Positions 1 through 57,272 of a stretch of DNA of 64,000 nucleotides are shown here, piece after piece. Made by a program: the position numbers and the translations under genes. The stretch lies in assembly GCF_001418685.1 (NCBI RefSeq), contig NZ_LIVM01000003.1:1-64000 (forward strand), read 5' to 3'. How positions within the stretch are numbered: the stretch's first letter is position 1; each line of letters begins with the position of its first letter. Under the pieces are notes generated by a model that was not told the DNA's origin, searched no databases, and saw only the letters and a list, made by a program, of their open reading frames with translations. The DNA comes from Apibacter mensalis. Lineage in GTDB: Bacteria; Bacteroidota; Bacteroidia; Flavobacteriales; Weeksellaceae.

Positions 1-1059
1 TCCTTATTGGAAAAAGGTACGGTTGAAGTGAGCCAAGCTGTGGAAAGACAAAAGCTTAAACGCCGGCACGTGTTGTTTTTAGAAGCTAAGACCAATAATC
101 CTAACTTACGTTTGGGAGACATCGTGAAGCTCAAAGCCTGGATGCCTAAAAGTGGGCTGTTTAAGGACGGAGAAGTTCCTTTGGAGCAGTACAAGATCAT
201 AGAAATCACCCATTATCAAGACATTACCGAAGGTTATTACAATGAATTGGTAGGAATACCTGTCCATAACATCGTTCCGGAATATATGGACGAAGATGCT
301 CTGCCGCTATGCGAAGAGCAATCGGCCATAGTAACCGATAACAACGATCCGCAAGGAATGAGCAGAATACGAGTACAATTTCCCTGGCAGAAGCCCTTTA
401 ACGGAATGACCCCGTGGATCCGCTCCATTACTCCCTATGCAGGGAAAGGAAAGGGAATGCACATTGTACCGGAGATAGGCGAAGAGGTAATCGTTACTTT
501 TGAAAACGGAAATGCCGAAAAGCCGGTGAGCTTGGGTGCCATGTTCAACGGGGAAGCTAAATCCGGACATGGGGGTGCCGGAAATTATATGAAAGGCTTG
601 CAAACGGTCAGCGGAAATAAATTACTAATGAACGACCAAAAGGGTTCTGTTTTATTGGAAGATCATGGGAAAACAAGCATGAAATTTGACGGTGCGGGCA
701 ATTCTTCTATAGGTACTTCGTCTTCTCAAGTTATTACGGTTGGAGGCTGTAAGGAAGCTCCGGATGGTAAATCTTTACTAAAAATGGACAAGGACGGCAA
801 TATCAATCTGGAAGGAAAAACTAAAATTACTCTTAAAGTTGGGAATAACACCATTACCCTGACAAAAGACGGAATATTCACCAAGGCAGAAACAGGGGAA
901 GTTAAAACCATTGCAAAAGCAGGTTCGGTTACCATTAAAAGTGAATCCGATCAAATTACCATTAGCGCCTCAACCGCTAATACTATAGAAGGTGCGGATA
1001 TACAGATTTTTGGTAATGGAAGTATAATAGTAGATTCCCCCGACACCGACATAACCTAA
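1..1059 (+). CDS. vgrG: VgrG-type type VI secretion spike protein (5' end cut by window)
   Basis: This is the C-terminal 352 codons of a Vgr-family spike protein. The reading frame is open from base 1, so the true start lies outside the window. The visible part holds a gp5-like OB-fold core: DPQGMSRIRVQFPW, then the family motif EIGEEVIVTFENGNAEKP, followed by GAMFNG. After it come repetitive short beta-strand stretches (SVLLEDHGKTS, NINLEGKTKITLKV) expected of the trimeric needle. VgrG proteins sit at the tip of the type VI secretion tube, carry a PAAR-like tip and deliver effectors into rival cells. The next gene starts 15 bases downstream and encodes such a PAAR-like effector, so the two are very likely co-transcribed and co-delivered. 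The family call is secure; the cargo pairing is inferred from adjacency. Confidence 0.9.
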   Translation, partial: SLLEKGTVEVSQAVERQKLKRRHVLFLEAKTNNPNLRLGDIVKLKAWMPKSGLFKDGEVPLEQYKIIEITHYQDITEGYYNELVGIPVHNIVPEYMDEDALPLCEEQSAIVTDNNDPQGMSRIRVQFPWQKPFNGMTPWIRSITPYAGKGKGMHIVPEIGEEVIVTFENGNAEKPVSLGAMFNGEAKSGHGGAGNYMKGLQTVSGNKLLMNDQKGSVLLEDHGKTSMKFDGAGNSSIGTSSSQVITVGGCKEAPDGKSLLKMDKDGNINLEGKTKITLKVGNNTITLTKDGIFTKAETGEVKTIAKAGSVTIKSESDQITISASTANTIEGADIQIFGNGSIIVDSPDTDIT

Positions 1060-1074
1060 CCCAAACACAGGAAT

Positions 1075-2670
1075 ATGCCACATGAATTAGAATACATAGT
1101 CGATCAGGCAGTCATGTTATGCGACGAAGGAATAAAACCCGATTACTTTAACAGCACGCATAATGCCAATGTAAAAATAAACGGATGTAAAGTCTGCACC
1201 ACCGCCGATAAAATCCCAATAACCAATATACCCGCATTTGGGATATGCCAAAAAACGCAACAACCCTGCGTACCGGCTCCGTTAGAATGGAAAGACACCT
1301 ACAAAGTAAAAGTCAAAGGCAACCAAACCCTACTCTATAAAAGCACCTTACCGTGCAGCTTAGGCGGCAAAATAGAATTTATAACCAGCGGACAAATCCC
1401 CGTAAGCCGAGAAGACTTAGATAAACTGACCGAAGAAAACGCCGAAGACCCGCCGCAAGAAGAAGAGGACGGCTTAAGTTGGTGGGATGTAGTAGAAATG
1501 GTACCCTTTATAGGCGGTGCGGTCGGTATAGTACGTTCAGGAAGTAAAGGAGACTGGGTAGGCATTGGATTGAGCGCAGCCTCTTTAGCACTAGATATAG
1601 GAGGAGTATTTTCCTTAGGCGCAGGAAATGCCGCTTCAGCAACAGTAAAAACAGGAAAACTAGCAAAAGCGGCCAGTAAAGTAGGCAAGGCAGCATCCAA
1701 AATAAGTAAAGCCGCCCTGACCGCAGGCGGAAAACTGCTAACCAAAGCAAGCGCTAAAGCAGCAGCCAAAGCCCTTGCCAAAAAAACCGACGACATAATC
1801 ATACGGTACGGCAAAGTATGCGTATTTGCCTGTTTTCCTGCCGGAACGCCTGTTCACACACAGCAAGGCATAAAAAAAATAGAACAAATACGCGAGGGCG
1901 ATCGGGTATGGTCGCAGCACCAAACCAGCGGCGAAATAAGCCTGAAAAAAGTAACCGCCATTATCCGCAAAGAGATAGACACCACCGTACAAATAGAACT
2001 GGAAGGCGAAACCATAGAAACCACCGCCGAACACCCCTTCTATACCAAACAAGGCTGGAAAGATGCCGCCGACCTCACCGAACAAGACCACATACAAACC
2101 AAAAATAAAAAATGGTACCGCGTAAAAGGACAAAACTTTCTTTATACTAAGAAAAAAGTCTATAATTTTGAAGTAGAAGACTGGCACACCTACTTTGTGG
2201 GCAAACTCGCTTGGTGGGTGCATAACGCTAAGCCTTGCTTGAGCAGTATAAAACATTTACCAGAATGGTTAAAAAAAATAGTAAAAGGAAATTACTTTAA
2301 TTATATTAGGCAAAGTTTTTATAAAAGGATCGGCGGTTTTAATGAGGTTGTTTTACAAACAGGCAAAAGGCTTGACAGCTACATACCCGGTGTAGAAATA
2401 GTAAGCCGAAAATTTACACAGTTAGGGAAAGTAACAGAAAGAACAGCAAAAAAATATATTGATGAAATCACTAGCAAATACGCCCCCGGTACGGTTATCA
2501 AAAACACCAAACGTAATGCGGAAGCCATTGCAAGAGGAGGAGACAAATTGAAAGGAAAGATGATTTTAGAAGTACCTAGACAAACAGAAAAAATTTCCAA
2601 AGAAGTTTTAGAGTACGCGGCTAAACGTAACGTAACAATAAGAGATGTATCAGGTAAAATATATAAATAA
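1075..2670 (+). CDS. Type VI effector: DUF4280 (PAAR-like) + pre-toxin Hint + C-terminal nuclease-like toxin
   Basis: A 531-residue polymorphic toxin. Residues 1-105 are a DUF4280 domain (VMLCDEG, ITNIPAFGIC, PCVPAP, LPCSLGGKI), the PAAR-like tip that caps VgrG. Residues 136-235 are an Ala/Gly/Lys-rich helical, partly hydrophobic stretch. Residues 251-385 are a Hint autoprocessing domain: CFPAGTPV with the first Cys at 253, TAEHPFYT, and the end block WVHNA. Residues 386-531 are the toxin. The D434, E441 and SRK446 spacing with FTQL looks like a restriction-endonuclease-fold (Tox-REase-type) nuclease, but this assignment comes from motif memory only. Base composition drops sharply after the Hint end. 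The gene follows vgrG by 15 bases and is followed by its likely immunity gene. DUF4280 and Hint calls are strong; the nuclease call is moderate. Confidence 0.88.
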   Translation: MPHELEYIVDQAVMLCDEGIKPDYFNSTHNANVKINGCKVCTTADKIPITNIPAFGICQKTQQPCVPAPLEWKDTYKVKVKGNQTLLYKSTLPCSLGGKIEFITSGQIPVSREDLDKLTEENAEDPPQEEEDGLSWWDVVEMVPFIGGAVGIVRSGSKGDWVGIGLSAASLALDIGGVFSLGAGNAASATVKTGKLAKAASKVGKAASKISKAALTAGGKLLTKASAKAAAKALAKKTDDIIIRYGKVCVFACFPAGTPVHTQQGIKKIEQIREGDRVWSQHQTSGEISLKKVTAIIRKEIDTTVQIELEGETIETTAEHPFYTKQGWKDAADLTEQDHIQTKNKKWYRVKGQNFLYTKKKVYNFEVEDWHTYFVGKLAWWVHNAKPCLSSIKHLPEWLKKIVKGNYFNYIRQSFYKRIGGFNEVVLQTGKRLDSYIPGVEIVSRKFTQLGKVTERTAKKYIDEITSKYAPGTVIKNTKRNAEAIARGGDKLKGKMILEVPRQTEKISKEVLEYAAKRNVTIRDVSGKIYK

Positions 2671-3267
2671 ATCAAAATAAAGGAAATAAACTATGATAGT
2701 AAAGTATTTAGGGTTTTTTATGCAAAAAATAAAAGATCAAGGTAGCTCCGTTGCACTATGGGACACATGGAATAATACTAAATTTGAGAAAAAAGTAGAA
2801 AAAGGCAAACTCACCTCTGAAGAAGTCGCTAAATATAACCACGAGCATTTATTGGGATATGAGTTTTGCGTATTACACTCCGAAAAATCACTTTACCCCT
2901 ATTGTTACGTTACGATAGTGCCTAGAAATAAACATGTTGGCGTTGATTTTATCGATAATGAAGGTCGCAACTATTTATCTTATCTTTTTAATGAAGTAAA
3001 AGAAGACCGCACCTTATTTTTAGAAGAAGTTTGGTTTTATCAATTTATCCCAGGAAACAGCAGCGAAGACCAAGAGTACCGTATGCACTTTGCATTTGAT
3101 CAGGACGGAAACTATGCTGCCCGAAAATATATCGATTCTAAGGGGAAATACGAAGATTACGAAGGCAATCAAAAACTCGACTTTTCAGGCTTATACGAAA
3201 AATATCCCGAATTTGGACAATACGAAGGCATAATCCAACTCGAACGCCCGGTGTTGAATGATATTAT
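2590..3267 (+). repeat. Direct repeat unit 1 (toxin tail + immunity gene)
   Basis: Bases 2590-3267 realign with 4034-4711 at a constant offset of 1444 with no gap. The unit covers the last 27 codons of the toxin, the 22-base spacer with the ribosome binding site, and almost all of the immunity gene. From about 3065 to the end only one base differs. Confidence 0.93.
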
Positions 3268-3274
3268 TTCTTGA
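2693..3274 (+). CDS. Putative immunity protein, copy 1 (cognate to the preceding toxin)
   Basis: A 193-residue acidic soluble protein with no signal peptide and no family that I recognise. It starts 22 bases after the toxin stop, with a Shine-Dalgarno-like AAAGGA about 10 bases before ATG. In polymorphic toxin loci the gene right after the toxin normally encodes the immunity protein that binds and blocks the toxin in the producer cell, so this function is inferred from position. A second gene at 4137 encodes a protein differing at only 12 of 193 positions by my hand alignment. Those differences fall mostly in residues 17-100, while residues 127-192 are identical. It could instead be an adaptor, but its size and place favour immunity. 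Confidence 0.72.
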   Translation: MIVKYLGFFMQKIKDQGSSVALWDTWNNTKFEKKVEKGKLTSEEVAKYNHEHLLGYEFCVLHSEKSLYPYCYVTIVPRNKHVGVDFIDNEGRNYLSYLFNEVKEDRTLFLEEVWFYQFIPGNSSEDQEYRMHFAFDQDGNYAARKYIDSKGKYEDYEGNQKLDFSGLYEKYPEFGQYEGIIQLERPVLNDIIS

Positions 3275-3293
3275 TATAACAAATCAAAAATAG

Positions 3294-3350
3294 GCATCTG
3301 ATAAAGCTGTACGTATACTAGATGATATTTCTAAATTACCCGGATTATAA
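3294..3350 (+). pseudogene. Possible orphan toxin C-terminal tail (fragment 1)
   Basis: A 19-codon in-frame remnant ending in TAA; it reads ASDKAVRILDDISKLPGL. A TAG lies directly upstream in the same frame. It sits 23 bases before the immunity-type gene at 3374, which matches the toxin-to-immunity gap at 2670-2693 and the second tail at 4005-4114. I read it as the end of a displaced toxin module whose immunity gene was kept. It is too short for an independent family call and could be chance. Confidence 0.4.
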
Positions 3351-3373
3351 AATTAATTAATAATATTAAACAT

Positions 3374-3982
3374 ATGTACACATTAAAATTCGCACAATAC
3401 AATAACACTATGAAAGAAGTAATGTCTGAAGAAGATACTTTAGAGAATATAGTAGATCTTAGCCTTGATAGGAAACCAACAGCAGAAGACAAAAAACATC
3501 TCAAGAATGCAGAAGATTGGGCCAAGTATGCTTTTGATAATGATAAAGAATACTATGTCACCTTTTTTAAAGGTGGTGAGCCTATAGCATGCGTAAATAA
3601 TTATTTTGAAACGATAAGTATTGATTTTCTAACTTATCATAATGGTGAATTGTTTATTTATCTTTTTATGGTTTATGATAAAGAAAAAGGATCGCATAAT
3701 AAGGATGTGGATGGAAAAATATTTTTACGTCAGATTAATTTATATGATGAAGATGCAGATAAAAGAATAACTAATGAAATTTTTTTTAAGGATAACGGCA
3801 TTATGAATGTTGAGACCATTACAGAAACAAAAAGACCGGAGTTTAGAATGGATTATGAAGAAAAAGAAACCCAAGTAAACTTATCACATAATTGGCTAAG
3901 AAAACCCCAAAATTACACAGATTACGAATACTTATTTGATTATCAAAACATTTTAAAACCTGAATATTTAGATTTACCATAA
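3374..3982 (+). CDS. Putative orphan immunity protein, unrelated to its neighbours
   Basis: A 202-residue acidic soluble protein without signal peptide or recognised domain. It shows no visible similarity to the 193-residue immunity pair on either side. It lies between two toxin-tail remnants and is in the same orientation as the effector operon. The most likely role, by position only, is an immunity protein retained after its own toxin module was lost, still guarding against relatives that carry that toxin. The start ATG at 3374 gives the longest frame; a second in-frame ATG lies 12 codons in (NNTMKEV). Its base composition is low in GC like the toxin tip, unlike the DUF4280-Hint part. Confidence 0.6.
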   Translation: MYTLKFAQYNNTMKEVMSEEDTLENIVDLSLDRKPTAEDKKHLKNAEDWAKYAFDNDKEYYVTFFKGGEPIACVNNYFETISIDFLTYHNGELFIYLFMVYDKEKGSHNKDVDGKIFLRQINLYDEDADKRITNEIFFKDNGIMNVETITETKRPEFRMDYEEKETQVNLSHNWLRKPQNYTDYEYLFDYQNILKPEYLDLP

Positions 3983-4004
3983 TATTTTATTGTGCATTCT
4001 TGTA

Positions 4005-4114
4005 GTTATTAAAAACCCCGAACGTAATGCGGAAAAATTTCCAAAGAAGTTTTAGAGTATGCGGCTGAAAAGGGTGTAACAATAAGAGATGTATCAGGTA
4101 AAATATATAAATAA
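4005..4114 (+). pseudogene. Decayed second copy of the toxin C-terminus
   Basis: Bases 4005-4033 read VIKNPERNAE, matching VIKNTKRNAE at toxin residues 474-483. Then a deletion removes about 20 codons and shifts the frame. From 4034 the toxin frame resumes as KISKEVLEYAAEKGV and continues through TIRDVSGKIYK to the same stop (4112-4114). In the upstream frame the join produces a TAG. Substitutions such as AEKGV for AKRNV show this was a different allele, not a fresh copy. It is placed exactly as the intact tail is: 22 bases before the immunity paralogue at 4137. This is an orphan toxin tip with its immunity gene. Confidence 0.88.
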
Positions 4115-4711
4115 ATCAAAATAAAGGAAATAAACTATGATAGTAAAGTATTTAGGATTTTTTATGCAAAAAATAAAAGATCAAACAAGTTCAGTAAGCA
4201 GATGGGACACATGGAATAATACCAAATTTAGAAATAAAGTAGAAAAAGGCAAACTCACCTCTGAAGAAGTCGCTAAATATAACTACGAGCATTTATTGGG
4301 ATATGAGTTTTGCGTACTACACTCCGAGAAATCACTTTACCCCTATTGTTACGTTACGATAGTGCCTAGAAATAAACATGTTGGCGTTTATTTTATCGAT
4401 AATGAAGGAAGAACATATTTAAAATATCTTTTCGATGAAGTAAAAGAAGACCGCACCCTATTTTTAGAAGAAGTTTGGTTTTATCAATTTATCCCTGGAA
4501 ACAGCAGCGAAGAGCAAGAGTACCGTATGCACTTTGCATTTGATCAGGACGGAAACTATGCTGCCCGAAAATATATCGATTCTAAGGGGAAATACGAAGA
4601 TTACGAAGGCAATCAAAAACTCGACTTTTCAGGCTTATACGAAAAATATCCCGAATTTGGACAATACGAAGGCATAATCCAACTCGAACGCCCGGTGTTG
4701 AATGATATTAT
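4034..4711 (+). repeat. Direct repeat unit 2 (toxin tail + immunity gene)
   Basis: Second copy of the 678-base unit at 2590-3267, same strand, no gaps. Differences are concentrated in the first half of the immunity gene. The distal half is almost identical, which points to recent duplication or gene conversion. Recombination between the copies would delete the gene at 3374. Confidence 0.93.
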
Positions 4712-4718
4712 CTTTTAA
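4137..4718 (+). CDS. Putative immunity protein, copy 2
   Basis: A 193-residue paralogue of the protein at 2693, 181 of 193 residues identical by hand count. It keeps the same AAAGGA ribosome binding site and the same 22-base distance from a toxin tail, but that tail is now only a remnant. Differences include GSSVAL to TSSVSR near residue 20, FEKK to FRNK at 31-34, D85Y and S96K. Several reverse charge or bulk, as expected where an immunity protein must fit a variant toxin surface. By position it is an orphan immunity gene for the related allele whose toxin has been lost. The biochemical function is not shown by sequence. Confidence 0.72.
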   Translation: MIVKYLGFFMQKIKDQTSSVSRWDTWNNTKFRNKVEKGKLTSEEVAKYNYEHLLGYEFCVLHSEKSLYPYCYVTIVPRNKHVGVYFIDNEGRTYLKYLFDEVKEDRTLFLEEVWFYQFIPGNSSEEQEYRMHFAFDQDGNYAARKYIDSKGKYEDYEGNQKLDFSGLYEKYPEFGQYEGIIQLERPVLNDIIF

Positions 4719-4739
4719 TTTATTTATAAATATAAAAAT

Positions 4740-5324
4740 ATGATTAGTTGTATAAAATACGATTCGAAGCAGAGAAAAAGAGAATATTTTGAAATAGATG
4801 ATTTAGAAACTCTAATTATTCAATTTGAATCATTACCCGATTATTCAGGAACCACCCTTGAGTTAAAAAAAAACACTATTAAATTAAAATTTCAAGTAAC
4901 CTATGATGATTATTATAGAATCACCTTTTACGTAGAAGAGCATGATAAATCTATTTTGGAGAAAAAAGAATTTGGGCTTAAATGCATAACTTTATTTTTT
5001 GAAGATGATGAAAAATTTAAAGATTTAGCTGAAAACCCTTTAGAGTATTTCAAAAAAGACAGAAAGGTTACTAGATCAGAAATTTTTAATGACCAGATAA
5101 ATACTACTGTTATATCACAAACTAAAAAAAATTTAATTAATGCCCAAATTTACAAAACCTATAAAGGAAAAAACTATACTAAAGAAGAATGGGTAAAATT
5201 AGAACAAAAGTTATTCGAAACTTATGCCCAAAAAAATAATTTGAGAACCGCTATAGATATAGAAAAAGAAAAGAGGAAAAAAGAAGGAGGCTTTTTCTTA
5301 GGCGAGAAAGAAGTAAAGGATTAA
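4740..5324 (+). CDS. Hypothetical protein of the effector island, possible immunity protein
   Basis: A 194-residue, charged, soluble protein that I do not recognise. Its C-terminal third is Lys/Glu-rich and probably helical (KNYTKEEWVKLEQK, then KKEGGFFLGEKEVKD). It begins 21 bases after the immunity paralogue stop and shares its strand, so it may be the last gene of the same transcript. Its residues around YAQKNNLRTAID recur in a broken gene at 5859-6041 as YAQKYNLRTAID, so it belongs to a family that had at least two members here. An immunity or effector-chaperone role is possible; there is no direct evidence for either. Confidence 0.55.
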   Translation: MISCIKYDSKQRKREYFEIDDLETLIIQFESLPDYSGTTLELKKNTIKLKFQVTYDDYYRITFYVEEHDKSILEKKEFGLKCITLFFEDDEKFKDLAENPLEYFKKDRKVTRSEIFNDQINTTVISQTKKNLINAQIYKTYKGKNYTKEEWVKLEQKLFETYAQKNNLRTAIDIEKEKRKKEGGFFLGEKEVKD

Positions 5325-29875: not shown

Positions 29876-30409
29876 ATGAAAGAGTATAGACCCATATTTA
29901 TTAGCTTATTTAAATTTTTTTCTGTTTATTTAGTATTAACAGCATTATATTATTGGTATCTTACTTATTATCAAAATGAGCTTAAAACTTGCGATGAGTT
30001 TACCTATAGGGTAGCTAAACAATCTTCCTGTTTGTTAAATTGCATAGGAATTCCCAGCCAAGCAAAACATATAGACCAGGAAAATTACATGCGATTTTAC
30101 GTCAATAATAATTTCATAAGTATAGTTAACGAAGGCTGCAACACTTTATCGATAATCATTCTTTACATTTCGTTTATAATAGCTTTTGCAAATTCTTTGA
30201 GAAAAACATGTATTTACTTGATTATAACCGTATTACTTATATATTTTACTAATATTATAAGAATAAGTTTTATAAATTATATATTTTATTATTATCCGGA
30301 ATATGGTAAATTCAGTCATGATTATCTATTTCCGACTGTGATTTACGGATTAATAATGGTTTTATGGATTGTGTGGATCAAATATTTCATATTTAAAAAG
30401 AACAAATAA
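29876..30409 (+). CDS. xrtF: Exosortase family protein XrtF
   Basis: 177 residues, multi-pass membrane protein of the exosortase/archaeosortase superfamily. The three catalytic residues are in place: Cys in NEGCNTLSI, Arg in NIIRISFI and His in KFSHDYLFPTVIYG. Exosortases recognise a C-terminal sorting tail on secreted proteins and process it during export. The short form and its adjacent partner gene at 30412 are characteristic of the exosortase F system of Flavobacteriia. No target protein with a matching C-terminal tail is visible in this window. Confidence 0.9.
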   Translation: MKEYRPIFISLFKFFSVYLVLTALYYWYLTYYQNELKTCDEFTYRVAKQSSCLLNCIGIPSQAKHIDQENYMRFYVNNNFISIVNEGCNTLSIIILYISFIIAFANSLRKTCIYLIITVLLIYFTNIIRISFINYIFYYYPEYGKFSHDYLFPTVIYGLIMVLWIVWIKYFIFKKNK

Positions 30410-30411
30410 AT

Positions 30412-30855
30412 ATGAAAAAAACTAGTAAAATTATTGGAATTATACTAAGCATACTGTTGCTAATTTTAGTACGAAAATTCGAAATCACAATGTTTTATGA
30501 TCCCTTTCTTTCATTTTTTAAGCAGAAAGATTTTAATCATCACATTCCTCCTAAATTCGGCCTTATAAAACTTATCGTTTCGCTGATCTTAAGATACGGC
30601 TTAAATTCTCTTTTAACACTTGTAATCATACAATTATGGTACAATGACAAAAAAATTACGAAGGTATGTTTCCATATCTTAGTTTTTTGTTTTATTTTTT
30701 TTACAATCCTTTATATATTTTCTCTACTTACCAATTTTAGCTTAGGTTACATGCCTACATTTTATATAAGAAGGGTGCTAATTCAGCCTATATTATTACT
30801 ATTACTTATACCTGCAATTTATTATTATAAGAATTTACCCACTAATTCACGTTAG
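30412..30855 (+). CDS. Exosortase F system-associated membrane protein
   Basis: 147 residues, four predicted membrane helices, starting 2 bases after the xrtF stop. The loop MFYDPFLSFFKQKD and the helix after KLIVSLILRYGLNSLLTLVIIQ match the small protein always found beside XrtF in Flavobacteriia. Its role is unknown; a membrane partner or stabiliser of the transpeptidase is the natural guess. Its 3' end overlaps the convergent gene at 30842 by 14 bases. Confidence 0.85.
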   Translation: MKKTSKIIGIILSILLLILVRKFEITMFYDPFLSFFKQKDFNHHIPPKFGLIKLIVSLILRYGLNSLLTLVIIQLWYNDKKITKVCFHILVFCFIFFTILYIFSLLTNFSLGYMPTFYIRRVLIQPILLLLLIPAIYYYKNLPTNSR

Positions 30856-51901: not shown

Positions 51902-52528
51902 ATGACAAACTTGATACAAAAGTATTTTCCGGAGATAACTGAGAAACAAATGCGTAGTTTCGAAAAACTTCCTGATTTGTATACAAAATGGAATGAAAAG
52001 ATAAACGTGGTATCAAGAAAAGATATAGATTCTTTACTTGAGAAACATGTACTCCATTCTTTGGGTATTGCAAAAGTAATCAAGTTTACTCCTACCACCA
52101 AAGTATTAGATATTGGTACTGGTGGCGGGTTTCCCGGAATTCCTTTAGCAATACTTTTTCCAGATTCACAATTTACTTTAGCAGATTCTATTGGAAAAAA
52201 AATCAAGGTTGTTAATGATATTGCTCAAATTTTAAATTTAAATAATGTAACCGGAATACACTCACGTGCTGAAAAAATTAAAGAAAAATTCGATTTTGTA
52301 GTAAGCAGGGCAGTAACCCAAATGCCCGTGTTTATGTCCTGGGTTAAAGGCAAATTTATATCTAAAAATATCAATAGTTTACAGAATGGCGTTTTGTATT
52401 TGAAAGGCGGAGATTTAACTGAAGAGCTGAAAAATTTTCCCGAGGCTACTATCTTTGAATTAAAAGATTATTTTGATCAGGAGTTTTTCAAAACTAAGAA
52501 AGTCGTTTATATTAAAAATATGCACTAA
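51902..52528 (+). CDS. rsmG: 16S rRNA guanine-527 N7-methyltransferase
   Basis: 208 residues, full RsmG (GidB) length. Motifs: KWNEKINVVSRKD, the SAM site LDIGTGGGFPGIPLAILFP, DSIGKKIKVVNDI, and FDFVVSRAVTQM. It methylates G527 of 16S rRNA. The next gene's start follows after 4 bases, suggesting co-transcription with the TPR protein. Confidence 0.96.
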   Translation: MTNLIQKYFPEITEKQMRSFEKLPDLYTKWNEKINVVSRKDIDSLLEKHVLHSLGIAKVIKFTPTTKVLDIGTGGGFPGIPLAILFPDSQFTLADSIGKKIKVVNDIAQILNLNNVTGIHSRAEKIKEKFDFVVSRAVTQMPVFMSWVKGKFISKNINSLQNGVLYLKGGDLTEELKNFPEATIFELKDYFDQEFFKTKKVVYIKNMH

Positions 52529-52532
52529 AATT

Positions 52533-55502
52533 ATGCGAAAAAAAATCCAATGGCTTATCCCATTATTAGGAGCAAATTTATTGGTAAATGCTCAATTATC
52601 TGAAATTTATTACAACAATTACCAGATAAGCAATGCTAAGGAATTATATGATAATGAAGCTTATAGAGGAACTCAATATATCATTAATGATTTAATTAAC
52701 TTTTCTAATCTGAGATCTTACCAATTGGAAATTGCTAATTTTTATGATGCTCTTATAAGCCTTATTTTACAAGATGAAGAAGCTGAAAAGAAATTTGATT
52801 CATTTACCACTAAATATCCGCAAAGTGTTTTAACTGAGAGAGCTCACCTTCAATTGGGAAATTACTATTTACTACATCAGGATTATTACCGTGCTGCAGA
52901 AGAACTTTCTAAAGTAACAATTGAGAAACTACCTCCTTATAGAAGAGCCAATCAATATATTAAGCTTGGATATGCGCAATTTATGAATCAGGATTTCGAA
53001 AATGCAGAAAAAAATCTTGAAAAAGGATCTTACACCAATCAATACAAAAATCAAATAACCTATTTATTAGGACACATAGCTTATGCAAACGGAGAGCATA
53101 TAGTAGCCAAGGAAAAATTTACTTCCCTATTAAACCAGCCTGAATTTTCTGAAAAGATCAAACCTTATATGGTTCAAATTTATTTTAATGATGGAGAATA
53201 TGATTCTGCAATTACTACAGGAAAGACTTTATTAGCATCTAATCAACATCCGGAACTAAAAAATGAAATTACAAAAATTATTGGAGAAAGTTATTTTAAA
53301 AAACAAAAATATGCTGAAGCAGAACCTTACCTTTCTTCTTATATAAAAAACAGCACCTCTCTAACTTTAAGCGACTATTATCAAATGGGATATGTATTAT
53401 ATCAAGCCAAGAAATATGAGGAAGCGGTTACCTATTTTAATAAAATTACCATAGGAGATATTTCACCTATTTCACAGAATGCATATTACCAGTTGGGTAA
53501 TTCCTATTTAAAAACGTATAAAAAGAAAGAAGCATTAACTGCTTTCAAAGCGGCTTCTGAAATGGATTTTGACAAAAAAATCCAGGAAAATGCATATTTA
53601 AATTATGCTAAATTGAGCTATGAAGTGGGTAATCCGTATGAATCTGTATCCAAAGTTTTAAATACGTACCTGAAAAAATATCCTAATTCCAAGCATCAAT
53701 TTGAAATCAATGAATTGTTAGTAAAATCATATATTAATTCGGAAAATTTTTCGGAAGCATCAGAGCTTCTTTCATCCATACCTAATAAATCTTTGGAGTT
53801 AAAACTTAAAGAGCAAGAAGTTGCTTATGCATATGGAGTACAATTATATAACCAGGGTAAGATTGAATCAGCCTCTACAGAATTTGAAAAAGCAATACTT
53901 TTAAGAAATAATTCACAATTTTATGCTCGATCTCTTTATTGGTATAGCGATTGTCAATATCAATTAGGAAATTACCAAAATGCTATTGATAAGTTACAAA
54001 TTTTGCAAAATTCCGGCATAACCATACCGGAAAGTTCTCAAGTAATGTATCAAAAAGGATATTCTTATTTAAAACTAAAGAACTTTGATCTTTCAGCAAC
54101 TGCATTCCAGGATTATCTTATAAATCCAAAACAAGAATTTAAAGCGGATGCTGAGGTACGACTTGCTGATGCTTTACTAGGTAGCAACCAGCTTAATCAA
54201 GCAATTCAGATGTATGATAAGGCTTATTCATCTAATATTGATGACAGGGAATATTCTCAATACCAAAAAGCTATCGTTTATGGCCTACAAAAAAATTATA
54301 AAAGCAAAATAACCGAGCTTGAAAAGTTCATAAAAGAATATCCTAAATCTGAAAAAATTACCGATGCTTACTTTGAACTAGGTAGAGCATATGCTGAAAC
54401 TGAAAATTATCATAATTCTAACAGTTCTTTTCAAAAAGTTATCAATTCTTCCAAAAATAATGATTGGGTAGTTATGTCATATCTTAATATAGCTGATAAC
54501 TTAACCAGCTTAAAAGAATACCAGAAAGCCATTGTAAATTATGGAACTATTGCTGACAATTACCCAAAAACTGATTATGCTTTACAAGCCATAACCGGTG
54601 CAAAAACTGCATTTATAGAAAGTGGTAAACAAAATGAGTACATTGAATGGGCTAAAAGAAAAGGTTATAATATGGATAGTACGGAAGCAGAAGAATTAAC
54701 TTTTATGTCTGCACAAAATAAATTTTCAACTAAAGATTATTTAGGGGCTTCTCAAGAATTTGCTACTTTCCTATCTAAATTTCCAGATACCAATCGTAAA
54801 ATAATTTCTTTATATTATTTAGGGGAAAGTTATTTTCAGCTGAATAATTATAATCAAGCTATTGGTGCACTAAAAGAAGTTTCAGAATCTTCCAATGAAT
54901 TTCAAGAAGATGCTTTGATTAGACTATCCCAAATTTATTTAAAACAAGAAAAAAATGAAGCCGCTCAAAATTCTTTGGAATCTTTGTATAAAATTACTTC
55001 AAATCAGAATTTTAAATCTTTTGCCGAGCTGGAGCTCATGTATATCTATTCTGACCATAAAGAGTATAATAAGGCGAATGAAATGGCTATAAAAGTACTG
55101 AATAATTCAAAAAATCCTTCCACTGTAAAAGAACAAGCCACTCTTATTAAAGCTCGAAGCTTATACATTTCCGGAAAAACAAATGAAGCAAAATCAGTAT
55201 TTGCAACTTTAGAACAATCTAAAAATAATGCTGTAAAAGCAGAAGCTCTATATTATAATGCATTATTTAAAAATAAGAATAAAAAATACGATGCTAGCAA
55301 TTCAGTTATTTTTAATTTGACATCAAAATACTCTGATCAGCAGTATTGGGGAGCTAAAGCTCTACTCATAATGAGCGACAATTATCTCAACCTTAAAGAT
55401 AATTATCAGGCTACGTATATATTAGAGCAAATTATAGAGAATTACAAAGAGTTTCAAGATGTTGTACAAGAAGCCCAAACTCAACTTAATAAAATTAAAT
55501 AA
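52533..55502 (+). CDS. Large periplasmic tetratricopeptide-repeat protein
   Basis: 989 residues from ATG 52533, which gives a signal peptide (MRKKIQWLIPLLGANLLVNAQ); the longer frame overlaps rsmG and lacks one. Almost the whole mature part is TPR or Sel1-like helical repeats, e.g. QMGYVLYQAKKYEEAVTYF, AYYQLGNSYLKTYKKKEAL, YYLGESYFQLNNYNQAIGAL, roughly 20 or more units. Such proteins are scaffolds that hold partners. The barrel protein follows after 21 bases, and this pair is likely co-expressed. A role in outer-membrane protein or lipid handling is plausible but unproven. Confidence 0.9.
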   Translation: MRKKIQWLIPLLGANLLVNAQLSEIYYNNYQISNAKELYDNEAYRGTQYIINDLINFSNLRSYQLEIANFYDALISLILQDEEAEKKFDSFTTKYPQSVLTERAHLQLGNYYLLHQDYYRAAEELSKVTIEKLPPYRRANQYIKLGYAQFMNQDFENAEKNLEKGSYTNQYKNQITYLLGHIAYANGEHIVAKEKFTSLLNQPEFSEKIKPYMVQIYFNDGEYDSAITTGKTLLASNQHPELKNEITKIIGESYFKKQKYAEAEPYLSSYIKNSTSLTLSDYYQMGYVLYQAKKYEEAVTYFNKITIGDISPISQNAYYQLGNSYLKTYKKKEALTAFKAASEMDFDKKIQENAYLNYAKLSYEVGNPYESVSKVLNTYLKKYPNSKHQFEINELLVKSYINSENFSEASELLSSIPNKSLELKLKEQEVAYAYGVQLYNQGKIESASTEFEKAILLRNNSQFYARSLYWYSDCQYQLGNYQNAIDKLQILQNSGITIPESSQVMYQKGYSYLKLKNFDLSATAFQDYLINPKQEFKADAEVRLADALLGSNQLNQAIQMYDKAYSSNIDDREYSQYQKAIVYGLQKNYKSKITELEKFIKEYPKSEKITDAYFELGRAYAETENYHNSNSSFQKVINSSKNNDWVVMSYLNIADNLTSLKEYQKAIVNYGTIADNYPKTDYALQAITGAKTAFIESGKQNEYIEWAKRKGYNMDSTEAEELTFMSAQNKFSTKDYLGASQEFATFLSKFPDTNRKIISLYYLGESYFQLNNYNQAIGALKEVSESSNEFQEDALIRLSQIYLKQEKNEAAQNSLESLYKITSNQNFKSFAELELMYIYSDHKEYNKANEMAIKVLNNSKNPSTVKEQATLIKARSLYISGKTNEAKSVFATLEQSKNNAVKAEALYYNALFKNKNKKYDASNSVIFNLTSKYSDQQYWGAKALLIMSDNYLNLKDNYQATYILEQIIENYKEFQDVVQEAQTQLNKIK

Positions 55503-55523
55503 TTACATCTAGCTTAGAAGTTT

Positions 55524-57272
55524 ATGAATATTCAATATAAAATACTGACTCTCATCATATTAGCAACCATCTTAACCACAACAGGATATTCTCAGATTAA
55601 AGAAGAAATATTAACTATTGGAAAAAAGAAAAATCCGGATGTTAATGTAAAAAATATAGAGAAAAAAAAGACTGAACCGGATAAATATCCGCCTTCCAAT
55701 GAAAACAACTCAATAAAAAAGGATTCATTAAATTATTCTATTATTGATGTTCCTGCAGTTTCTGAATTTCAGACTTCTCAACTCTCCCCTCAATCTTTAA
55801 ATACTGATTTTACTAATTCTTATTATGATAATCATGCAAAGATTGGATATGGAACTAGAAATACGGTGCTGGGTGATCTATATTTTAATTATCCGGTAAA
55901 TAATAATTTGACCGGTATAAAAGTGTCTGCACTTTCTACTGATGGTCCCAAAAACAAATATGATTGGAAGACCTCTTCTTCTACTATAGATGCAGAAGCT
56001 TTTTATATTTTTAAATTAAAAACCGGAAAATTACATTTTGCTGGAAATTATACCTACAACGGAACTAATTATTATGGTCTCAATACTCCTGAAATACATG
56101 CCAATCCCGGAATGAATTTAAGACAAACTACCAATCAACTTACCTTTAAATCCGATTATAATATGTATAGTAATAATTATCTGGATAAAGCCTTCTTAAA
56201 AGCCGGATATATGTGGGACAAATTTGATTCCAATGAAACTTTTATAGATCTCAAAGCAAAACTGGCCAAGAGTTCAGAAAATGCAAATCTTATGCTTCCC
56301 GGATTAAATTTTGGAGTAGAAGCTGATGTTTTGTTTAACTATACCTACACACATTTCGGATTAGATACAAAAAATAAATATTCTTTCTTAACTGCCGGAT
56401 TTTCTCCCGTATTACGAATTTCCAGCCAAGGTTCTTATCTGAAGGTTGGTGCTAATATTGCTTATAATGGTGAATGGGAAGGTAATAATACTAAAATTTT
56501 CTTCCATCCTAAAGCGGAATTTTTATTCAATGCTGCTAGAGAAATCAATGTATATGCAGGTATCGATGGTGGATTAAAACTTACTAATATGTCCGACTTA
56601 TTTTCAGAAAATCCTTATTTATATTCCAATCAACTGCTCAGACCTACCAATATTCTTTATAAAGTATATGGAGGGGTAAAAGGTGATATAGATGAAGGTA
56701 TTAAATACGAAGCAGAAGGATCCTTTAGTAAAGCCGAAAATCTTTATTTTTATATGAGAAATCCTTATGATCTTACTTTCCCTTCCATTTTAAAGCCTTA
56801 TAACAGATTAAATACTTTTAATGCAGTTTATGATGATGGTAATATTATTACCGTTAAAGGTGCTTTACAATATTTTTGGAAATCAGACCTGGGCATTGGA
56901 TTGGAGGGAGAATATCATAACTATGATCTTGATGAACTTAAACACGCTTATAATTTACCCAATTATAGGGTTGGTATAGACGCAAATTATAAAGCCCTAG
57001 AGGATAAATTAAAATTAGAAGCAAAATTGTTTTTTACCGGTGAAAGAAAGAGCAATTATTTCTACTACGACATAACCTCTTTATCGATTAAGGAGGGAAT
57101 AACAACTTTAGACAGTTATATTGACCTTAATTTTTCGGCTTCTTATAAATTGTTAACCAATTTCTCAATTTTTATAAACGGGACCAATTTATTCAGCAAA
57201 AACTATGAAAGATTTCAAGGCTATAAAGTCTTAGGAGCCCAAGTATTGGGGGGAATTTTGGTTCAATTTTAA
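55524..57272 (+). CDS. Outer-membrane beta-barrel protein, TonB-dependent-receptor-like, without plug
   Basis: 582 residues. A signal peptide (ILTLIILATILTTTGYSQ) is followed by a polar Lys/Pro/Asn-rich stretch (about 25-75) and then repeated amphipathic beta strands with aromatic girdles, ending ...KVLGAQVLGGILVQF, where a terminal Phe is the usual last residue of an outer-membrane barrel. No TonB box or plug domain is visible. It follows the TPR gene by 21 bases, so the two may form one system: a periplasmic scaffold and an outer-membrane pore or receptor. Ligand unknown. Confidence 0.85.
   Translation: MNIQYKILTLIILATILTTTGYSQIKEEILTIGKKKNPDVNVKNIEKKKTEPDKYPPSNENNSIKKDSLNYSIIDVPAVSEFQTSQLSPQSLNTDFTNSYYDNHAKIGYGTRNTVLGDLYFNYPVNNNLTGIKVSALSTDGPKNKYDWKTSSSTIDAEAFYIFKLKTGKLHFAGNYTYNGTNYYGLNTPEIHANPGMNLRQTTNQLTFKSDYNMYSNNYLDKAFLKAGYMWDKFDSNETFIDLKAKLAKSSENANLMLPGLNFGVEADVLFNYTYTHFGLDTKNKYSFLTAGFSPVLRISSQGSYLKVGANIAYNGEWEGNNTKIFFHPKAEFLFNAAREINVYAGIDGGLKLTNMSDLFSENPYLYSNQLLRPTNILYKVYGGVKGDIDEGIKYEAEGSFSKAENLYFYMRNPYDLTFPSILKPYNRLNTFNAVYDDGNIITVKGALQYFWKSDLGIGLEGEYHNYDLDELKHAYNLPNYRVGIDANYKALEDKLKLEAKLFFTGERKSNYFYYDITSLSIKEGITTLDSYIDLNFSASYKLLTNFSIFINGTNLFSKNYERFQGYKVLGAQVLGGILVQF

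Follow-up and report, generated by a model that had tools for sequence, protein, structure and literature searches.

A conserved gene pair for a tetratricopeptide repeat scaffold and a plug-less transporter-type barrel in Bacteroidia, probably served by a Ton-type motor

The window analyzed here is a stretch of 64,000 nucleotides of Apibacter mensalis DNA (contig NZ_LIVM01000003.1, positions 1 to 64,000), and we followed up two neighboring envelope genes in it, one for a tetratricopeptide repeat (TPR) protein and the other for an outer-membrane barrel. An earlier note, made from the sequence alone, had described a 989-residue all-TPR protein followed by the barrel 21 bases later, which is exact to the base by the open reading frame (ORF) coordinates (Table 1). 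A gene named rsmG-like by inspection ends at 52528, and the TPR gene starts 4 bp later.

Table 1 Features of the TPR-barrel locus in the window.
Feature	Coordinates	Strand	Description
TPR scaffold gene	52533..55502	+	989 aa; signal peptide, then ~26 TPR-type helix pairs
Gap between TPR gene and barrel gene	55503..55523	+	21 bp
Plug-less TonB-dependent-transporter-type barrel gene	55524..57272	+	582 aa
Barrel signal peptide	55524..55592	+	residues 1-23; cleavage site by inspection
Conserved N-terminal tail of barrel	55593..55823	+	residues 24-100; Lys/Pro-rich, modeled with low confidence
Short alternating hydrophobic segment at TonB-box position	55602..55625	+	residues 27-34; by score not a canonical TonB box
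Beta-barrel domain	55824..57269	+	residues 101-582

For the TPR protein, all Pfam models above their cut-offs are of TPR type. Several TPR-bearing NCBIfam models match it, and only tol_pal_ybgF (TIGR02795) exceeds its cut-off, with 196 bits versus 90.1, spread as eight repeat stretches over the 989 residues. The AlphaFold model (mean pLDDT of 90.0 from a 47-sequence alignment) has 53 helices of at least 4 residues each between residues 30 and 988, and zero strands. A fold search with this model returned generic repeat proteins.

The AlphaFold model of the barrel has a pLDDT of 74.3, which falls below 50 at residues 13-100, and the beta-barrel begins at about residue 101. Among the matches listed, every row from Foldseek (50) and from VIA-align (50) is a TonB-dependent transporter (TBDT), examples being BtuB (1nqg, E = 2e-15 by Foldseek) and FhuA (Z = 21.6 over 437 residues, root-mean-square deviation of 3.0). 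The fold matches span residues ~91-582, as in a TBDT barrel, with the 22-strand number not counted with certainty. By sequence, neither Pfam nor NCBIfam matches the barrel at E ≤ 1, a PDB sequence search gave no meaningful relative among solved structures, and tblastn did not find the barrel in plasmids. No plug domain is present, as judged by Pfam at E ≤ 1 and by the lack of strands in residues 13-100; PF07715 occurs at 15 places in the A. mensalis genome, none of them at the barrel gene, and only 77 residues of low-confidence tail lie ahead of the barrel domain. The barrel is thus of the TBDT fold and lacks a plug, in agreement with the earlier reading of a TonB-receptor-like barrel without one.

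The tail had also been described as Lys/Pro-rich, and residues 24-71 read from the sequence indeed hold 11 Lys and 4 Pro. Among 61 aligned sequences it is nearly as conserved as the barrel itself (mean commonest-residue share of 0.32 versus 0.37). Gln24, the first mature residue, and Tyr71 are invariant in 61/61, and position 47 is always Lys or Arg. The commonest pattern joins three elements: a short segment of alternating hydrophobicity, aromatic-x-Pro, and D-A-x-K-[I/L]. The segment lies where a TonB box would be expected.

Pairing was surveyed in 60 loci of the class, the first 40 spread over families and the next 20 taken partly from families already showing motor genes (see below). The TPR gene is upstream of the barrel gene on the same strand within 265 bp in 59 of the 60. 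In 20 further loci from the family and order, it is upstream in 18, within 183 bp in 16 of these, at 544 bp in L189 and at 1104 bp in L199. A first pass over 54 short loci had given an upstream TPR match in 52. Among 80 loci titled Flavobacterium or Flavobacteriaceae, it was seen upstream in 78, usually ~1.1 kb off, and the contig ends before it could be seen in the remaining 2. In G002, G130, and G493, the TPR gene is not adjacent to the barrel gene and is present elsewhere in the genome. The genes are separated by a PhzF-like gene (by inspection) in L039 and L043, and a beta-lactamase-like gene lies between them in L019 (553-1440, Pfam) and L024 (447-1367). The earlier note had named pairing confined to this genome as the result that would speak against its reading; this was looked for and did not occur.

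A single-sequence search matched the barrel in 63/80 genomes of the same family, in one place each except for G014, where the match is in two pieces. With a profile, it was matched in 283/296 class genomes at E ≤ 0.001, the rows listed being mostly full-length and the weakest matches being likely ordinary transporters. Because at most 4 candidates were scored per genome, some barrels were missed, and G412, in which a barrel adjoins the TPR gene, is a case missed by this profile. A wider profile matched 238/296 genomes over the phylum, with the strong matches within the class. Matches outside the class are weaker (133 bits or less), some of them full-length in frames of 570-620 aa, as at G123:C51:36365-38074, G203:C14:236068-237771, and others. 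It is unusual for a nearly class-wide outer-membrane protein to have no Pfam or NCBIfam family model.

Genes for ExbB, ExbD, and a TonB-like protein stand in tandem downstream of the barrel gene in 17/60 class loci, as recognized by profiles in a sample chosen partly from families already showing this motor. These loci are L083, L101, L108, L110, L121, and L131-L142, in families f3, f8, f9, and f89. The order in L083, L110, and L121 is TPR, barrel, membrane protein, ExbB, ExbD (labeled from strand-matched ORFs), and TonB-like protein; L108 is ordered alike with ExbD recognized by profile, and both ExbB and ExbD of L083 were confirmed by Pfam. The TonB-like protein is divergent, as TIGR01352 is above its cut-off in L108 only, weak in L083 and L110, and without a match in L121. 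A FolC-like gene follows the motor string in five clustered cases.

The motor genes are usually separated from the barrel gene by a gene for a protein with an HU domain, a SPOR domain, or both. Among 14 proteins intervening or following the barrel that were scanned with Pfam, HU-CCDC81 is above its cut-off in 8 (L083, L101, L110, L115, L131, L132, L136, and L143) and below it in L134 and L147, and SPOR is above its cut-off in 6 (L110, L115, L121, L131, L136, and L143) and below it in 3 more (L083, L132, and L141). In L110 (4685-5848) and its relatives, HU-CCDC81, of a DNA-binding type, and SPOR, a septal wall domain, reside on one membrane protein. SPOR binds denuded septal glycan, and this membrane protein is a possible link from nucleoid to septum. 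HU-CCDC81 domain 1 itself is widespread, in 94/119 class genomes, and among 30 HU-CCDC81 places viewed with 1.5-kb flanks, the barrel is alongside only in L169. Judged by titles and the starts of abstracts, none of the papers listed in literature searches on the pair, on its rival explanations, or on HU-CCDC81 with SPOR, outside subscription journals and preprints, describes the pair.

On the other side of the pair, an FtsE-like ATPase is encoded upstream of the TPR gene and on the opposite strand in 23/60 class loci and 6/20 family and order loci, counts that leave out a 625-aa ABC protein in L192. Its best NCBIfam hit is FtsE at 239 bits, below the cut-off of 264.85. Protein clusters found in at least 5 of 38 loci were the barrel, TPR, FtsE-like ATPase, two glycosyltransferase-like, FolC-like, ExbB, TonB-like, and GyrB-like families, with names beyond the profiles assigned by inspection.

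A TPR scaffold with an open barrel is the anatomy common to the AlgK-AlgE, PgaA, BcsC, and PelB exporters. A polysaccharide exporter of this kind would account for that anatomy and for the two glycosyltransferase-like families, each near the pair in 11/38 loci. However, only a minority of loci have the glycosyltransferase-like genes, mostly at a distance of 3-5 places upstream; by the inspected names, the pair has no recurring polymer synthase next to it; the barrel fold is that of a TBDT; and a Ton motor is not known to have a role in those exporters. We consider an exopolysaccharide exporter very improbable.

The A. mensalis genome has three places of the MotA/ExbB family: a four-gene ExbB-ExbD-ExbD-TonB set (L127), a three-gene ExbB-ExbD-TonB-like set (L128, on contig C6), and a third with other surroundings (L129). 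Of these, it is the C6 set that is related to the barrel-linked motor, since its ExbB scores 350 bits versus 109 bits for the ExbB of the four-gene set, with a profile that includes the C6 sequence itself. The TonB-like protein of C6 (L128, 6718-7626) has no recognizable family in Pfam or NCBIfam. The C6 ExbB scores higher as TolQ than as ExbB (82 versus 50 bits), and this was discarded as support because the genome's other ExbB, taken as control, gave the same pattern (87 versus 55 bits).

Pair and motor tend to be lost together. The barrel is missing in 17/80 genomes of the family, and in a test covering 15 of these 17 (all but G005 and G079), with up to 20 candidates each, the TPR protein was not found at 1e-30 in any of the 15. 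The motor's ExbB was then compared among 35 genomes chosen as 16 with the pair and 19 without, the latter being 14 of the 15 (not G019) and five others (G343, G481, G497, G599, and G539) with no TPR match and no barrel match better than 2e-8. It is present at 220 bits or more (220-350) in 16/16 pair-bearing genomes and reaches 200 bits in 1/19 pair-lacking genomes. As for the other pair-lacking genomes, G033 has an 84-bit fragment, G539 has nothing, and the rest have 1-2 lower paralogues (139 bits or less) of a kind also carried by pair-bearing genomes. Fisher's test gives p values of 4e-9 when genomes are counted and 2e-5 when genera or lineages are, with lineages that are not independent samples.

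Two further explanations were weighed. One is that these are two ordinary envelope genes adjacent by ancestry without joint function, for which the FtsE-TPR-barrel order may be ancestral and ~1.1 kb usually separates TPR and barrel in Flavobacterium. Yet the two genes stay adjacent in families whose surroundings otherwise differ, and the motor's ExbB is missing along with TPR and barrel, so mere neighborhood is hardly credible.

The other is related to Slam, the surface lipoprotein assembly modulator, in which TPRs are joined to an outer-membrane barrel. The pair could be its two-gene counterpart, a flippase for the surface lipoproteins of Bacteroidota; it is nearly class-wide, its TPR-plus-barrel makeup resembles Slam, and the exporter of surface lipoproteins is treated as unidentified in the available portions of two 2025 structural papers (PMC12578637, PMC12611786). 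Unlike Slam and DUF560 proteins, the two parts are separate genes here, the barrel has the TBDT fold with no Pfam match at E ≤ 1, and the pair is motor-linked. Moreover, pair-lacking G061 and G049 still encode lipoproteins with an export signal (two or more acidic residues among the six after Cys), which are 12 of 30 lipoprotein-like ORFs as judged by signal peptides only in 38 stretches, ~12 and 16 percent of those genomes. The SusC/SusD-type proteins of A. mensalis gave no tblastn match in the 38 stretches. Such a flippase is likely essential, or else one of several non-essential ones, according to the part of PMC12578637 drawn on here, yet the pair is missing in all sampled members of genera g10, g21, and g28. 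A Slam-like flippase is therefore very improbable.

From the pairing and the co-loss with a specific proton-channel motor, the TPR protein and the barrel are likely clients of the three-gene Ton-type motor. With somewhat more confidence than doubt, we propose a trans-envelope machine, driven by proton motive force and with its own Ton-type motor, whose periplasmic and outer-membrane end is formed by the pair. Computation on sequences and predicted structures shows the fold, the pairing, the gene order, and the co-loss with the motor, whereas a complex, the pulling, the septal site, and a part in outer-membrane constriction are inferred. The TPR superhelix would be the periplasmic scaffold and the plug-less TBDT barrel the outer-membrane element of one machine, the two perhaps in a physical complex. 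An inner-membrane ExbB-ExbD-TonB-like motor, encoded on C6 here and in the same gene string as the pair in four other families, would energize it. The motor's TonB-like arm would cross the peptidoglycan and pull the N-terminal tail of the barrel, the TPR protein docked beneath the barrel, or both. In several lineages, the membrane protein encoded directly after the barrel would have an HU-like domain in the cytoplasm, a SPOR domain in the periplasm, or both. The most probable job would be the coupling of invagination or tethering of the outer membrane to the wall, a task that Tol-Pal has in other bacteria. Our best guess for the site of action is the division septum, because the HU/SPOR protein often follows in motor-linked families and the FtsE-like ATPase is upstream. 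The earlier note had suggested a two-part envelope machine; the conserved pair of envelope proteins bears this out in part, but the number two is not supported, since more parts are linked, namely the ExbB-ExbD-TonB-like motor and, in some lineages, the HU/SPOR protein.

Several observations weigh against this proposal. The motor is not adjacent to the pair in this genome, in 43/60 class loci, or in the 20 family and order loci. Only some families show the HU/SPOR link; Pfam did not detect SPOR in L101, L134, L138, L140, and L147, and detected neither HU-CCDC81 nor SPOR in L138 and L140. This genome has an HU-only protein and one unlinked SPOR protein, and no combined one. A TPR relative has no barrel in the next 1.4-1.5 kb in G424, G491, G401, G427, and G449 (in G518 and G406, the contig ends after the TPR relative). 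Some complete genomes lack the pair, which is therefore not universally essential. The pair-lacking genome that retains the motor's ExbB, at 213 bits, is G040, a draft in 60 contigs; the barrel is present in its congeners G011 and G057.

The TonB-box question also belongs here. A matrix built from 13 boxes of this genome's own plug-bearing transporters was applied to 94 barrel sequences, of which 11 were dropped for having no recognizable cleavage site, leaving 83 rows, some of which repeat one genome under a second locus id. The tails average 1.6 bits versus 16-23 bits for the training boxes, and p < 0.05 in 5/83, with p of 0.08 for the A. mensalis tail. Because of this poor score against own-genome boxes, the tail is not called a TonB box; a canonical one was not found. 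The earlier statement of no TonB box therefore holds for the score, but it passes over a conserved tail with an alternating hydrophobic segment at the box position, which may contain a degenerate docking strand.

A final objection points to transport. In the available portion of PMC4446302, the Riemerella anatipestifer exbB-exbD-tonB1 operon, a three-gene motor like the C6 operon as judged from gene number and sizes only, supports hemin transport without TonB2 and energizes the hemin receptor OMhemR in E. coli. The pair could accordingly serve TonB-driven uptake or release of a specific ligand, the barrel being a large channel, the TPR protein its plug or receptor, and the motor the opener. 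As with the TBDTs BtuB and FhuA, the barrel has their fold (Foldseek E to 2e-15, VIA Z of ~21) and a Ton-type motor is tied to it by gene order and co-loss. Unlike theirs, it has no plug or canonical TonB box, no ligand genes were seen with it, and it has a TPR neighbor; among the clusters in at least 5 of 38 loci, no gene for a binding protein, for transport, or for metabolism recurs next to the pair. The same account, which concerns hemin and iron and in that portion does not mention the pair, describes the three-gene system as deletable, without effect on hemin uptake or iron-depleted growth by its deletion alone, and as apparently unnecessary for iron uptake. Hemin transport stops once tonB2 is also deleted, which keeps the transport explanation alive, and we rate it as unlikely.

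Bacteroidetes have no identifiable tol-pal loci in a 2025 analysis, which in its available portion proposes PorE as a tether between outer membrane and peptidoglycan and expects further systems that stabilize the outer membrane (PMC12204202). We tentatively put forward, with more doubt than confidence, that Bacteroidia replaced Tol-Pal by a machine of Ton parts, in which the HU/SPOR protein joins chromosome, wall, and outer membrane at the closing septum. The motor would pull the plug-less transporter barrel and the giant TPR scaffold, and in several lineages the HU/SPOR protein would tie the assembly both to the nucleoid on its inner side and to septal peptidoglycan on its outer side.

Like Tol-Pal (TolQRA, TolB, Pal, and CpoB/YbgF), the system here has a proton-channel pair with a transducer, a periplasmic TPR protein, and an outer-membrane element, besides the septal hint from the SPOR and FtsE-like neighbors. 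Unlike in Tol-Pal, the outer-membrane element is a barrel, the TPR protein is ~990-1100 aa, and the transducer has no strong resemblance to TolA or TonB. Pfam scans of the gene strings of L083 and L110, which left out ORFs shorter than 130 aa, the ExbD of L110, and some doubtful ORFs, found no TolB or Pal domain, and the rest of those genomes was not searched.

PorE is a proposed answer to the same gap, the lack of tol-pal in Bacteroidetes (PMC12204202); it is a single lipoprotein whose domains are of TPR, propeller, carboxypeptidase-like, and Pal-like type, whereas here a TPR protein, a barrel, and a motor are involved. A subunit of the Bacteroidota β-barrel assembly machinery (BAM) was also considered and set low; in the descriptions available to us, none of its components (BamA, D, G, H, M, P; BamG-K, SurA) is described as a TPR protein with a TBDT barrel.

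If the barrel is a client of the three-gene Ton motor, the motor gains a job besides nutrient import. In that case, stabilization or pulling of the outer membrane without Tol-Pal, a question raised in the available part of PMC12204202, becomes testable, and a transporter barrel would be serving, plug-less, as a force-bearing anchor.

Incidentally, the HU-only protein of this genome (L130, 5878-6276) has 132 aa with no SPOR part, and is encoded on the same contig as the pair, ~45 kb away. Elsewhere in the window, positions 29876-30855 contain an exosortase-family gene (EpsH) and, immediately after it, a small gene for a membrane-protein-like product. At 7-5324, a VgrG-like gene (Phage_base_V) is followed by a gene for a protein with DUF4280 and pretoxin-HINT domains and by two closely similar small genes (2693-3274 and 4137-4718), an arrangement as in a type VI effector locus where immunity-like genes are duplicated.

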